Part shown: positions 53,540 to 59,374 of the stretch, piece by piece | Numbering within the stretch: position 1 is the first letter of the stretch | How the letters are laid out: every line of letters begins with the position of its first letter | Assembly (NCBI GenBank): GCA_016874005.1 | Contig: VGVQ01000001.1 | Coordinates: 248,001 to 312,000, forward strand | Source of the DNA: Gemmatimonadota bacterium | GTDB taxonomy: Bacteria > Gemmatimonadota > Gemmatimonadetes > Gemmatimonadales > GWC2-71-9 | Length of the DNA stretch: 64,000 nucleotides | Direction of reading: 5' to 3' | Program-made: the position numbers and the translations under genes | Notes under the pieces: generated by a model | The model's input: the letters and a program-made list of their open reading frames with translations, nothing else | Told to the model about the DNA's origin: nothing | Database searches by the model: none

Positions 53540-54529
53540 ATGCTGTCCGACGATCGCGCCCGGCGCGCTCTGGCGGCCTTGCGCCGGTTCCCCTGTCGGA
53601 CACTCGGGCGCTATCCGACGCCGATCGACCCGCTCGATCGTTTCGGGCGCCGGGCCGGCATCCCTCAACGGCTGTTCGTCAAACGGGACGATGCCATCAG
53701 CTTTGGGTTCGGCGGCAACAAGGTCCGCAAGCTCCAGTACGTCCTTCCCTCGATCGTCGCCAGTGGCGCCGACACGGTGATCACCTGCGGCGGCGTCCAG
53801 TCGAACCACGTCAGGGCAACCGCCGCCGCCGCCACCGCGGCGGGTCTCGATTGCCACGTCGTCGTCAACGGAACCGCGCCCACTCCGCCGACCGGAAACG
53901 CCCTGCTCGATCGGCTCTATGGCGCCACCTTCGAGTATGTCTCGGCTCGCGAGGAGCGCGCCCCCGCGATGGAACGGGCCGCGGCGCGGCTTCGAGCCGA
54001 GGGCAGACGACCCGCGATCGTCCCGTTGGGAGCCTCCACCCCACACGGTGCCCTCGGCTACGTCGCGGCGATCGGCGAGATGCTCGACCAAGGACTCCGA
54101 CCGGACCTCATCGTGCACGCCTGCTCCTCGGGCGGGACCTCGGCCGGACTCCTCGCCGGCTGCGCGGTCCATGGTCTCGACGCGGCGGTGATCGGGATCA
54201 GCGCCGATGATCCGCCCGCGGCCGTCGAAACGGCTGTCCGAAGCATTCTCCGCGGCCTCGGCGAGTTGCTGGAGATCGGTCCCGCGCTCGAGTCCTCCAT
54301 CCGGGTCCAGGTCGACGACGCCTTCGTGGGGCCGGGCTACGGCGAACCGACCCCGGCATCCCGCGAAGCGGCCGAGTTGATGGCCCGCGCCGAGGCAATC
54401 GTGGTCGACCACAGTTACACCGCCAAGGCCACGGCGGGATTGCTGGACTATTGCCGGAGCCGCAGGATCGGGGCGGATGCCACGGTGCTGTTCTGGCATA
54501 CCGGCGGACAGGTCGCCCTGTTCGCATGA
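53540..54529 (+). CDS. PLP-dependent D-cysteine desulfhydrase/ACC deaminase family enzyme
   Basis: Fold type II PLP enzyme that breaks D-cysteine (or a related amino acid) to pyruvate and ammonia. The 329 residues show LGRYPTPIDPLDRFGRR, the PLP Lys in FGGNKVRKLQYVLP, the phosphate/substrate loop CGGVQSNHVRATAAAA, and HACSSGGTSAGLLAGCAV. Cytoplasmic. Its ATG directly follows the MATE stop, and its TGA overlaps the next ATG. Confidence 0.9.
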   Translation: MLSDDRARRALAALRRFPCRTLGRYPTPIDPLDRFGRRAGIPQRLFVKRDDAISFGFGGNKVRKLQYVLPSIVASGADTVITCGGVQSNHVRATAAAATAAGLDCHVVVNGTAPTPPTGNALLDRLYGATFEYVSAREERAPAMERAAARLRAEGRRPAIVPLGASTPHGALGYVAAIGEMLDQGLRPDLIVHACSSGGTSAGLLAGCAVHGLDAAVIGISADDPPAAVETAVRSILRGLGELLEIGPALESSIRVQVDDAFVGPGYGEPTPASREAAELMARAEAIVVDHSYTAKATAGLLDYCRSRRIGADATVLFWHTGGQVALFA

Positions 54530-55689
54530 CCGAGTTCGCCGACGGGATCGAGATCGGACCCGACTTCGTTCGGTTCAGCCAGCGGGACGACATCTTCAGC
54601 CGCGCGGATTGGGATCCCGAGGTCGCCGGCCCGAAGGCGGACGCGTTCTACCAGGGCTATTTCATGGCGGGCGCGAAAGCGCGGCCAGTCGAGGGGTTCA
54701 CCCTTCGCGACTACGCCCTTCGAAACGCCTCCTGGCACATCGCGGACGTCTTTTCCGACCTCCGGCGCGGCGACGGCCGGCATGAAGGGTTCACCGACCT
54801 CTTCACCGCCCACCGTCCCGGCTCGGCGGCGCTGGCCGATCTGCCGGCGCCCGCTCGACTGACGGCCGAGATCAAGCAAATCGCCAGGTTGTTCGGGGCC
54901 GATCTGGTGGGGATTGCCCGCTCCGATCCTCGCTGGATCTACCGCGAGAGCTATCGCCGCGCCTCGCACTCGGCCGTCCCCAACGCTCTCCCCGAGGACC
55001 TGCCCTATGCGATCGTCATCGGCAAGGGCATGGATTGGAGCCTCACCGAGACGGTGCCCTCCGCCCTGGCCGGCGCTGCGACCGGCCTGGCTTACTCCCG
55101 CGACGCAACGACCCTGGTCGCCTTGGCCCAGTACATCCGGAATCTCGGGTACCGAGCCGAGGCCAGCATGAACGACTCCGCGCTGGCGATACCCCTGGCC
55201 ATTCAGGCTGGGCTGGGAGAGTATGGGAGGAACGGCCTGCTGATCACACCCGAGTTCGGTCCTCGGCTTCGGCTCGGGAAAGTGTTCACCGACTTGCCGC
55301 TGGAGCCGGACCGACCGAAGCGTTTCGGCGTCAAGCAGTTCTGCGACCGGTGCCGCCGATGCGCGGAGGCCTGTCCCGTCAAGGCCATTCCCTTCGACGC
55401 CCCCGCCGCCACGGTCCACGATCGCTCGAACCTGATCGGTGTCACCAAGTGGACCGTGCACGCCGCGAAGTGCTTCGGGTTCTGGGTCAATCAGAACTCG
55501 GACTGCTCGATCTGCATCCGGGTCTGCCCTTACAATCGAGACTACTCGCGGTGGTATCACCGGCTCTGGCGGGCGACCGCGGCCACCTGGATGCGCGGGA
55601 TCCTGCTGTGGGTCGAGCGCCGGCTCGGCCGCGGCGAACGGCGGCCGGCCGGGTGGTGGTGGAAGCGGCTCGGTTCGCCTAACGAGTGA
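54526..55689 (+). CDS. Reductive-dehalogenase-like (epoxyqueuosine-reductase-related) 4Fe-4S protein
   Basis: The 387 residues include an N-terminal region typical of the reductive dehalogenase domain (FSRADWDPEVAGPKADAFY), the active-core block QAGLGEYGRNGLLITPEFGP, and two ferredoxin-type clusters: CDRCRRCAEACPVKAIPF and CFGFWVNQNSDCSICIRVCP. No Tat signal is present, unlike respiratory dehalogenases, so it is probably cytoplasmic. QueG proteins share the fold and cobalamin use; the LLITPEFGP block favours the dehalogenase side. The last 48 residues (YSRWYHRLW onward) are Trp/Arg-rich and their coding sequence is duplicated 1,027 bp downstream. Confidence 0.78.
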   Translation: MTEFADGIEIGPDFVRFSQRDDIFSRADWDPEVAGPKADAFYQGYFMAGAKARPVEGFTLRDYALRNASWHIADVFSDLRRGDGRHEGFTDLFTAHRPGSAALADLPAPARLTAEIKQIARLFGADLVGIARSDPRWIYRESYRRASHSAVPNALPEDLPYAIVIGKGMDWSLTETVPSALAGAATGLAYSRDATTLVALAQYIRNLGYRAEASMNDSALAIPLAIQAGLGEYGRNGLLITPEFGPRLRLGKVFTDLPLEPDRPKRFGVKQFCDRCRRCAEACPVKAIPFDAPAATVHDRSNLIGVTKWTVHAAKCFGFWVNQNSDCSICIRVCPYNRDYSRWYHRLWRATAATWMRGILLWVERRLGRGERRPAGWWWKRLGSPNE

Positions 55690-55709
55690 CGACCGGGAAC
55701 TCGACCCGG
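55546..55709 (+). repeat. 164-bp direct repeat, copy 1 (3' end of the Fe-S gene)
   Basis: Spans the last 48 codons of the reductive-dehalogenase-like gene, its stop, and 20 bases beyond. It matches 56573-56736 with 7 substitutions and no gaps (about 96% identity). Confidence 0.95.
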
Positions 55710-55866
55710 GACCAGCGCCGCCGGGGGGATGGCGATCGAACGGGCGGGCTGGGCCTCGAGGGGACCGACCAGGCCTGCCCCGGCGATCCATGCCCGCCAC
55801 CGTGGCTTCCTCCACGGTCCTCGGTTGCAGTCTTATCTTGATGACTTCGCCTGGGAGTGACCGCAA

Positions 55867-56469
55867 ATGCCGCTGACCGATGAGGAGCTACGCGCCGTGC
55901 TCGCGCGCGCGGAGGAGATCGACCGCGCATCTCGGACCGGCGCGGAGTGGAAAGCCGAGGTCGCGGCGGTCGTCAGTGCGGCCCAAGAGGTCGGCTTCTC
56001 GCGCCAGGCGGTCGAGCGCGCCCTCACGGAACAGCTCGACCTCCCGACCGCCCCCCTCGAGCCAGGCTCGCTGGTTTGGGCGCGCTCCGCCGACGAGAAG
56101 TACTACGTGGCCAAGGTGATATCAGGGTCCGAAGATGGGACGCACGTGCGATTCTTGCGCGGGAGCGAGCACTCCGTGGGACCACACGAGCTCCGCCGAT
56201 GCTCCTTCATTCCCGGCGAGCGCGTCATCGTCGACTGGCCCATGTGGGGAGAATGGACCTGCTCGGTTATCTCCTACAGCGCCGAGAGCGGAATCGTCAC
56301 CGTCAACGACGGTTGGGGGGAGACCCGAACCTTCCCGATCAGCGAGGTCTGGCTCGCTCCGCGCAAGGCAGATGGGGCTTCCGCTCGTAAACGGGCCTAT
56401 GCTATTCTGGCCGTTGGTGGCATGATCGGCGCCGTAATCGGCTCCCTCGTCACGGCACTGGTCCGCTGA
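55867..56469 (+). CDS. Tudor-like double-repeat protein with C-terminal membrane anchor
   Basis: No characterised family is recognised. The 200 residues comprise a helical N-terminus (LTDEELRAVLARAEEIDRA, SRQAVERALTEQLDLP), then two SH3/Tudor-like barrels: residues 67-110 (PGSLVWARSADEKYYVAKV ... VRFLRG) and 117-165 (GERVIVDWPMWGEWTCSVI ... VTVNDGW). A Lys/Arg-flanked helix follows (177-199, AYAILAVGGMIGAVIGSLV). The W-x-W/Y-x-A-x-V pattern is that of Tudor/Agenet modules. It would be a tail-anchored membrane protein with a cytoplasmic binding domain. The gene sits between the two copies of the 164-bp duplication. A TATCTT box lies 27 bases before the ATG. Confidence 0.62.
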   Translation: MPLTDEELRAVLARAEEIDRASRTGAEWKAEVAAVVSAAQEVGFSRQAVERALTEQLDLPTAPLEPGSLVWARSADEKYYVAKVISGSEDGTHVRFLRGSEHSVGPHELRRCSFIPGERVIVDWPMWGEWTCSVISYSAESGIVTVNDGWGETRTFPISEVWLAPRKADGASARKRAYAILAVGGMIGAVIGSLVTALVR

Positions 56470-56485
56470 CGCGCTCAGCGCCGCC

Positions 56486-56547
56486 TCGACCCCTTTGGAG
56501 ATCGGCTCGATCGGCGGCGGCTCGACCTTCAAGGGGTTGTTGCCTGG
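56486..56547 (+). repeat. 60-bp dispersed repeat, copy A
   Basis: Starts TCGACC and ends GTTGCCTGG; it contains the small palindrome GATCG-GCT-CGATC. It matches the reverse complement of 59315-59374 with 4 mismatches and two 1-base gaps. It lies 26 bases before copy 2 of the 164-bp repeat. Confidence 0.85.
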
Positions 56548-56572
56548 ATGGGTTGTGGGCGAAGGAATCCTA

Positions 56573-56736
56573 TCGCGGTGGTATCACCGCCTCTGGCCGG
56601 CGACCGCGGCCACCTGGATGCGCGGGATCCTGCCGTGGGTCGAGCACCGGTTCGGCCGCGGCGAACGGCGGCCGGCCGGGTGGTGGTGGAGGCGGCTCGG
56701 TTCGCCTAACGAGTGACGACCGGGAGCTCGACCCGG
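56573..56736 (+). repeat. 164-bp direct repeat, copy 2 (orphan 3' fragment of the Fe-S gene)
   Basis: About 96% identical to 55546-55709. The fragment still reads LSRWYHRLWPATAATW and ends RRLGSPNE with the same stop at 56714-56716, but it has no start signal and no Fe-S domain. It is therefore a decaying remnant. All differences are substitutions, so the copy has aged somewhat since duplication. Confidence 0.95.
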
Positions 56737-57021
56737 CACCTCGCCCGGTGGTGGTACAACAGCCCACCGGTCGGCGTCTGCCCAGACCGTCGATGGCCGC
56801 CGCCGGGCCGGCAGCGGGAATCGGCTCCTCGCCGCGGCCCGGTCACGGTTGGCTGCCATGGACCCGGAGAGGCCGAGCCCCACCTATTTTCCCTCCGATG
56901 ACCAGCACCCCTGGCCGCCGGCCCACCCCTCGCCACCGGTTCGTCGCCGCCACGGCGCTGGAAGAGCGGCTTCGACTCGGCGCCGCCTGCCCCCACCGTC
57001 CAACGACTCGCTGAGGCATCG
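56737..57021. other. Intergenic stretch, no convincing full-length gene
   Basis: Together with the repeats this is the longest region without a clear gene (56470-57021). It contains GC-rich sequence with no long coding-like frame, a TATTTT box (56885-56890) and one short reading frame starting at 56898. No hairpin, tRNA or insertion-sequence end was recognised. Confidence 0.6.
56898..57014 (+). CDS. Candidate small open reading frame, 38 codons
   Basis: Starts ATG 7 bases after TATTTT, reads TSTPGRRPTPRHRF, then VAATALEERLRLGAACP, and stops 7 bases before the rhodanese gene. It could be a leaderless small protein, a leader peptide for the rhodanese gene, or chance. Only the promoter spacing and position support it. 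Confidence 0.25.
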   Translation: MTSTPGRRPTPRHRFVAATALEERLRLGAACPHRPTTR

Positions 57022-58776
57022 ATGCTCACTTTCATGACCGCCCTGTTCCTGACCGCGCCGAATCCCGACCTGCTGGTCTCGGCCGACTGGTTGGCCAGCA
57101 ACCGCAGCGCACCTAACGTCGTCGTGCTGCACGTGACCCGCGACGAAGCCGAATACCGGCGGGCCCACATCCCGGGCGCGAGATACCTCCCGGCGCGCGC
57201 GCTTTGGATCACGACCGGCCCCGGAGTCGAATTGCCCCCGGCGGCGCAGATCGACTCCTTGTTCGAGTCCTTGGGTGTCTCCGACCGGTCGCGGGTCATC
57301 CTCTACGGCGACACCTGGACCACGCCCCGGGCCTTTCTGGCCCTGGACTACATCGGCCTGGGCGACCGCGCCGCCATCCTGAACGGCGGCCTCGGCGCCT
57401 GGATGGCCGGCGGCCGAGCCGCCGAGTCCGACGAAGGTCACCGGGCCGAACGAACCGGCTCGATTACCCCGACCCTCCGGCCCGACGTCGTCGCCGATGC
57501 CGCCTGGATCAAGGCTCGCTTGGACGACCCCACCGTCGCCCTGATCGACGGACGCACCAAACCGGAATACGACGGCACCACCGAGGCGGAGCGGCTTCCC
57601 CGCTACGGACACATTCCCCGCGCGGGCCACCTGGCCTGGACCGAGACCTTTCGGGCGCCGAGCGCGGCCGACAGCGGCCGAGCCACGGAACTCCTCGACA
57701 TCCCGGCGTTGATCGCGCTCTTCGCCCAGGCTGGGGGAACCGGCACCAAGCAGATCGTCACCTACTGCACTGTCGGGTTACGAGCCAGCCACCTCTACTT
57801 CGTCGCCCGACTGCTCGGCCACCGCCCGAAGATCTACGACGGGTCGATGCGCGACTGGAGCGCCCAGCCCGACCTGCCGATGGTTGGCCCTCCGGCGAAG
57901 CCGCCGGCCTCCGACGAGCGCCGCCCATTCCAGGCATCCGACGAGCGCCGCCCATTCCAGGCATCGGTCGACTGGCTCCATCAGCACGGCGACGACCCCG
58001 GCGTGGTGGTGCTCCACGTCGATCGCGCTCGCGCCGGCTACGACTCGGTTCACGTCGCTCAGTCCCGCTTCGTTCCCATGAGCGCCTTCGTGGTGGAGAA
58101 GGACGGCGTGCCGACCGAGCTTCCCCCGCCGGACCGGCTCGACTCGCTGCTCGAGTCGCTCGGGATCGGCGATGACACCCGACACATCGTGCTCACCGGC
58201 GAGGTGCTCGCCGCCTCGCGGCTCTTCTTCACCCTCGACTATCTCGGCCTGAGCGATCGGGTCCGGTGGCTCGACGGCGGCGTCAAGGCGTGGAGCGCGG
58301 GAGGGCATCCGGTCAGTTCCACGGCGTCGCCGGGTGCGCGAGGCTCGCTGTCGGCGGTGCCCCGGCCCGAGTTGGTGGTCACCGCGGATCAGGTGGCCCG
58401 GTTGGTCCGGGACCCTGGGTATGCCGTGGTCGACGCCCGCAAGCCGGAGGAGTTCGCCGGGACCGCCAAGGAGGAAGGCGTCGAGCGCCCCGGTCACATC
58501 CCCGGCAGTATCAACGTCGATTGGACTAGGTTGTGGGACGGCTATTCGCTCAAGCCAGCCGCCGAGATCGACGCGATCTTGCGGGCGGCCGGGGTGAAGC
58601 CTGGCCAGACGATCGTGACCCTATGCCGGGTGGGGACCCGAGCCAGCGCGCTGTACCTCGCGGCCCGCGTCGCGGGGTATCGAACCGTGATGTATGATGG
58701 GTCGATGATCGACTGGAGCCGGAGGGCCGACCTTCCGGTCGCGACCGGTCAGTCGGCGGCCGGCCGCTCCAGGTAG
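57022..58776 (+). CDS. Four-domain rhodanese (two fused thiosulfate/3-mercaptopyruvate sulfurtransferases)
   Basis: Sulfurtransferases move sulfane sulfur from thiosulfate or mercaptopyruvate to thiophilic acceptors. This 584-residue protein holds four rhodanese domains: 1 (about 20-135, inactive, YGDTWTT where the Cys loop should be), 2 (155-287, active C249 in YCTVGLRAS), 3 (313-430, inactive, LTGEVLAAS), and 4 (450-575, active C535 in LCRVGTRAS). Each pair equals one normal tandem enzyme, so two enzymes are fused head to tail. The linker holds a perfect 9-residue tandem repeat (SDERRPFQA twice). The short hydrophobic start may be a remnant signal. Its 3' end overlaps the next gene by 28 bases. 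Confidence 0.9.
   Translation: MLTFMTALFLTAPNPDLLVSADWLASNRSAPNVVVLHVTRDEAEYRRAHIPGARYLPARALWITTGPGVELPPAAQIDSLFESLGVSDRSRVILYGDTWTTPRAFLALDYIGLGDRAAILNGGLGAWMAGGRAAESDEGHRAERTGSITPTLRPDVVADAAWIKARLDDPTVALIDGRTKPEYDGTTEAERLPRYGHIPRAGHLAWTETFRAPSAADSGRATELLDIPALIALFAQAGGTGTKQIVTYCTVGLRASHLYFVARLLGHRPKIYDGSMRDWSAQPDLPMVGPPAKPPASDERRPFQASDERRPFQASVDWLHQHGDDPGVVVLHVDRARAGYDSVHVAQSRFVPMSAFVVEKDGVPTELPPPDRLDSLLESLGIGDDTRHIVLTGEVLAASRLFFTLDYLGLSDRVRWLDGGVKAWSAGGHPVSSTASPGARGSLSAVPRPELVVTADQVARLVRDPGYAVVDARKPEEFAGTAKEEGVERPGHIPGSINVDWTRLWDGYSLKPAAEIDAILRAAGVKPGQTIVTLCRVGTRASALYLAARVAGYRTVMYDGSMIDWSRRADLPVATGQSAAGRSR
57910..57963 (+). repeat. Perfect 27-bp tandem duplication in the rhodanese linker
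   Basis: Two identical 27-bp units (57910-57936 and 57937-57963) keep the frame and add nine residues. They lie exactly at the junction of the two fused sulfurtransferases. Perfect identity implies a recent event or an unstable site. Confidence 0.97.
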
Positions 58777-59314: not shown

Positions 59315-59374
59315 CCAGGCAACACCCCTGAAGGTCGAGCCGCCGACGATCGAGCCGATCTGCGAAGCGGTCGA
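59315..59374 (-). repeat. 60-bp dispersed repeat, copy B (inverted relative to copy A)
   Basis: The reverse complement matches 56486-56547 at about 90% identity. It lies in the 136-bp gap between the SnoaL-like and rhomboid genes, which otherwise contains nothing recognisable. Confidence 0.85.

Follow-up and report, generated by a model that had tools for sequence, protein, structure and literature searches.

Insertion with long target duplication is reportedly the subject of Nobusato et al. 2000, Gene 259:99. The term comes from comparisons of Helicobacter pylori strains, in which the inserted DNA often carries restriction-modification genes (PMC1643837, PMC3031569). In Arabidopsis, transposed single genes are flanked by genic direct repeats, for which either long target duplication or the remnants of tandem arrays have been offered as an explanation (PMC2869330).

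The window considered here (the whole stretch of 64,000 nt that was analysed, from an uncultured Gemmatimonadota bacterium) contains a locus which probably belongs with the long-duplication insertions of these two types. It resembles the H. pylori cases in that (i) a lineage-specific gene lies between long direct repeats of host sequence, (ii) the length of these repeats is atypical for transposons and (iii) the insert encodes no recombinase. It differs from them in its cargo, which is a gene for a Tudor-like protein instead of restriction-modification genes, and the target duplication is here a presumed one. With the transposed genes of Arabidopsis it shares the presence of one non-transposon gene between direct repeats of host gene sequence; however, the present locus is bacterial, and the repeat is missing at the orthologous site of the relative, since the gene from which it is derived is absent there. 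Events of this type are already known as a form of genome rearrangement, and the locus is a real but modest example. It may be read as a polarised scar of gene acquisition with no visible mobile element, in which the duplication rebuilds the 3′ end of the resident gene, so that this gene survives.

Anatomy of the locus

The two copies of the repeat are direct and ungapped, with a spacing of 1,027 bp and 160 identical positions out of 168 (95.2%; BLAST E ~3e-73), and a genome-wide DNA search detected these two copies only (Table 1). A reading of the sequence alone (hereafter the sequence-only reading) had described an ungapped duplication of 164 nt at this spacing with approximately 96% identity, and this description proved accurate (157/164, 95.7%). 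The content of the repeat was also correctly given as 48 codons plus stop, but the stop codon, which ends at position 55689, is followed by 24 common bases and not by 20. Two further statements were confirmed: the orphan copy contains no Fe-S domain (the last cluster cysteine is C334, and the tail begins at residue 340), and one gene is located between the copies. The genome is a draft comprised of 49 contigs, which could favour an assembly artefact at the repeat. We nevertheless regard such an artefact as scarcely credible: the copies differ at 8 positions, the locus sits within a contig of 588 kb, and the longest exact run common to both tails is 39 nt, which makes confusion of the assembler unlikely.

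Table 1. Features of the repeat-flanked locus and of two similar loci (C7 and C2) elsewhere in the genome.
Feature	Position	Strand	Remarks
PALP-family enzyme gene, outer left neighbour	53540..54529	+	PF00291; conserved in the genus
Reductive-dehalogenase-like (RdhA-like) Fe-S gene, 387 aa	54526..55689	+	Start overlaps the PALP stop (ATGA)
Gene-end repeat, copy 1	55546..55713	+	48 codons, stop and 24 nt; intact 3′ end of the RdhA-like gene
Unit between the copies, 859 bp	55714..56572	+	Single copy in the genome
Tudor-like gene, 200 aa	55867..56469	+	AlphaFold2 model, Foldseek, four homologues at 47-61% identity
62-nt element	56486..56547	+	Shortly downstream of the Tudor-like gene stop
Gene-end repeat, copy 2 (orphan)	56573..56740	+	Probably diverging without coding constraint
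Multi-domain rhodanese gene, outer right neighbour	57022..58776	+	PF00581; directly after PALP in G004
Second copy of the 62-nt element	59315..59374	-	Downstream of a rhomboid gene stop (59404, minus strand)
C7 direct repeat	167290-167466 / 171736-171912		177 nt, 98.9%; covers the final 44 codons of a gene for a gamma-glutamyltransferase
C2 direct repeat	227236-227488 / 233705-233957		253 nt, 94.5%; covers the 3′ end of a gene for 685 aa

Free copies of the unit elsewhere in the genome, whose existence had been raised by the sequence-only reading, were not found in a whole-genome DNA search. The claim that the unit carries a dispersed repeat was not upheld either. The genome contains a single additional significant copy of the 62-nt element, placed in the inverted orientation (88.7% identity over 62 nt), the remaining matches being 16-37 nt long with E >0.01; a dispersed repeat family was therefore rejected. 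Each of the two copies is located immediately behind a gene stop. Their predicted RNA folds are unremarkable and dissimilar (z -1.07 and 0.27), and no Rfam match was obtained. The spacers (55690-55866, 56467-56580 and 56735-57021) were compared with a set of loci in order to trace the native flank of the RdhA-like gene by homology, and nothing informative was matched among these loci. The rhodanese gene itself contains a pair of 27-bp direct tandem copies (96%) at positions 57906-57959, where the encoded linker joins rhodanese domains.

Integrative elements often restore the 3′ end of their target gene. Such rebuilding is what the locus would have in common with the insertion of a transposon, an integron cassette or an integrase-mobilised element with the gene end as attachment site. 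This origin is, however, very unlikely. Neither a transposase nor an integrase is encoded within the unit or by the flanking genes checked, no terminal inverted repeats were reported at the ends of the unit, and a repeat of 168 bp far exceeds the usual target duplications of transposons (~2-14 bp). Moreover, no relatives of the Tudor-like gene were found in viral contigs, plasmids or PHROGs, by which a phage or plasmid origin of this gene was rejected.

The Tudor-like and RdhA-like genes

In an AlphaFold2 model, the Tudor-like protein has three helices at its N-terminus. These are followed by a tandem pair of five-stranded barrels (block pLDDT mostly 75-91) and by a C-terminal segment, which is helical, hydrophobic and poorly modelled. 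A Foldseek search with this model retrieved tandem Tudor and Agenet domains (Crb2, 53BP1 and ADCP1) at a probability of 1.00; the TM-score of the barrels against 53BP1 chains is ~0.7-0.76, and at the profile level KDM4A is weakly similar (E 0.002). The Pfam Tudor models remained below their gathering scores (PF18104, 14.1 vs 31.4 bits; PF18115, 13.0 vs 25.8), and NCBIfam gave no match. Because the Foldseek matches are tandem Tudor or Agenet domains, the name "Tudor-like" holds at the level of the predicted fold. In this predicted fold both barrels resemble the eukaryotic tandem Tudor domains (53BP1, Crb2, KDM4A), whereas the flanking helices and the C-terminal hydrophobic segment, together with the scores below the Pfam cut-offs, set the protein apart.

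The G+C content of the Tudor-like gene is identical to the contig mean (67.0% vs 67.0%), and an anomalous base composition was therefore rejected. The gene is absent from all five of the other genomes of the genus. Among the 288 genomes of the order, convincing homologues are present in just four others, all of which belong to a second family; in the loci read, their neighbours are unrelated and no gene-end repeats flank them. The five Gemmatimonadota genomes share an uncharacterised bacterial protein family, predicted to combine tandem Tudor-like barrels with a C-terminal hydrophobic helix.

The resident gene had been labelled simply as an Fe-S gene. The Fe-S part of this label stands, but the gene should be described as a reductive dehalogenase homologue: its product matches NCBIfam TIGR02486 (186 bits, against a curated cut-off of 160.35) as well as Pfam PF13486 and Fer4 families. 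Like the reductive dehalogenases of TIGR02486, the protein contains two 4Fe-4S cysteine sets; it differs from them in its length of 387 aa, in the lack of an evident twin-arginine motif at its N-terminus and in its patchy distribution. The only close full-length homologue found (55% identity) is encoded by G166 (MAG REEB496, Gemmatimonadetes). It aligns to near the end of the tail, which indicates that this C-terminal portion truly belongs to the RdhA-like protein. In G004, a member of the same genus, an RdhA-like remnant of 133 codons is present at another locus; this decayed remnant also appears to begin at an upstream stop (TTGA). The RdhA-like gene is patchily distributed among relatives, as is the Tudor-like gene.

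Origin of the duplicated gene end

In G004, the rhodanese gene starts approximately 50 bp past the PALP stop, and all of the DNA between these two genes in the present genome is therefore lineage-specific. In G003, the same interval is occupied by DinB-like and TonB-like ORFs (named by reading the sequences). Given these three different contents, the PALP-rhodanese gap (54529-57022) is a variable spot in the genus. The 2.5 kb located there has no counterpart at that site in the relatives read, and no relative was found that carries the RdhA-like gene at this site but lacks the Tudor-like gene (an empty site).

Over the 144 coding nt, copy 2 departs from copy 1 by six changes, of which five are nonsynonymous and one is synonymous; a further two are located in the 24 nt past the stop. 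The replacements at residues that could be polarised are R349P, L361P and R365H; since R349, L361 and R365 are common to copy 1 and the G166 homologue, it is copy 2 that is derived. With six changes in all, the probability of at least five being nonsynonymous is 0.003 at an omega of 0.1, 0.03 at 0.2, 0.08 at 0.3 and 0.51 under neutrality. This substitution pattern and the polarity, which both rest on few changes, suggest that the copies were probably identical at birth and that copy 2 is probably a derived non-coding relic, drifting by neutral decay.

Probable identity at birth argues against a tail that was imported from a diverged paralogue. The sequence-only reading had offered, as one of two options, an inserted segment that had acquired the end of another Fe-S gene; for a gene that had diverged, this is disfavoured, since five of the six coding changes are nonsynonymous and all three polarisable ones are derived in copy 2, which is the pattern of neutral decay and unlike that of two functional paralogues. 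The same changes bear on single-crossover (Campbell-type) integration, in which the resident tail would have recombined with a circle that bore the Tudor-like gene together with the diverged RdhA tail of another strain. A single event of this kind would produce precisely the arrangement of direct repeats seen here, and it has been proposed for the flanking repeats of Arabidopsis (PMC2869330). However, between the tails of two functional genes silent differences should prevail, whereas five of the six coding changes seen here are nonsynonymous, with R to P and L to P among them. In addition, no other genome was found with both a close RdhA and a Tudor-like gene, the latter being absent from REEB496, the sole source of a close full-length RdhA. 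Integration of this kind appears improbable.

The explanation that we favour, and to which we would give about an even chance, is the insertion of a Tudor cassette with long target duplication, by which the RdhA-like gene would have been kept whole while its displaced end became a relic. A small segment carrying the rare Tudor-like gene would have arrived recently and directly behind the RdhA-like gene, and 168 bp across the 3′ end of the latter would have become duplicated on both sides of it. As the duplicate spans the last 48 codons and the stop, the resident gene would have stayed complete, whereas its displaced original end (copy 2) would persist as a useless direct repeat, now decaying. 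The Tudor segment would be incoming DNA, possibly from Gemmatimonadaceae-like donors, and may have entered in the course of break repair; end joining is possible, as the genome contains a Ku gene. In favour of insertion are the repeat itself, the single-copy nature of the unit, the lineage specificity of both genes at this site, the adjacency of the PALP and rhodanese genes in G004, the derived state of copy 2, the two similar gene-end duplications and the local, direct repeats found in the genome survey (below), and the analogous events in H. pylori. Against it, no relative shows an empty site, and the spacers are uninformative in the loci compared. The link between gene acquisition and gene-end duplication made in the sequence-only reading is thus supported by the absence of the Tudor-like gene from the other genomes of the genus and from nearly the entire order, and by the arrangement in G004, although its option of a second-gene tail is disfavoured by the substitution pattern.

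A real possibility, if a more doubtful one, is that a local duplication was succeeded by loss. Either the whole RdhA-like gene or only its last 168 bp would have been copied approximately 1 kb away, with the Tudor-like gene already there as a bystander, and the second copy would have eroded to the tail. Copies that were identical at birth, with one of them decaying, fit this history equally well. Loss of the gene seems easy, judging from its reduction to a remnant in G004, and tandem-array remnants are the explanation favoured by the Arabidopsis authors for similar repeats (PMC2869330). On the other hand, two full RdhA copies, a finding by which the sequence-only reading would have been refuted on its own terms, were seen at the site in no relative, and the spacers hold no trace of the remainder of a second RdhA gene, which could also be the outcome of full erosion.

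Similar gene-end repeats elsewhere in the genome

We also surveyed 2.01 Mb of the genome (about half) for repeats with both copies on one contig, a length of ≥70 nt and an identity of ≥85%. All five repeats detected are direct, with their copies 1.0-6.5 kb apart, and the three longest, namely the present one and those at C7 and C2, cover a gene stop. Surviving high-identity repeats that are local and direct are to be expected under local duplication. A random stretch of such lengths covers a called gene stop in ~11-16% of cases, a figure which is somewhat too low, as the gene calls are incomplete; positions covering a stop would also be favoured by selection for an intact resident gene. High-identity dispersed repeats of 170-250 bp were not found in the 2.0 Mb examined. 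A control region of 400 kb from G031 contained no such repeats, but it is uninformative, as approximately one would be expected at the rate of the present genome.

It is conceivable, but in our view rather unlikely, that a recurrent process in this lineage deposits genes downstream of, or close to, resident ones, of which 3′-end duplicates of 170-250 bp are left over, as at the RdhA/Tudor, C7 and C2 loci. If the three loci do share a mechanism, a comparison of sister strains could test the pickup of single genes without transposons or integrases.

The C7 locus has a more complex history. Directly behind the first copy of its repeat there remains, in frame, the C-terminal part of another gamma-glutamyltransferase, for which G005 has a homologue; the gene order is unlike that of G005. 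The tail copy is found inside a cluster of such genes, right before the C-terminal remnant of another, which is in line with local duplication. For the 685-aa gene at the C2 locus, no DNA match within the genus was convincing. Its orphan tail copy is located 6.5 kb upstream, before a large beta-propeller-like gene; this arrangement is not produced by simple insertion behind a gene end, and it counts against the insertion with long target duplication that we favour.
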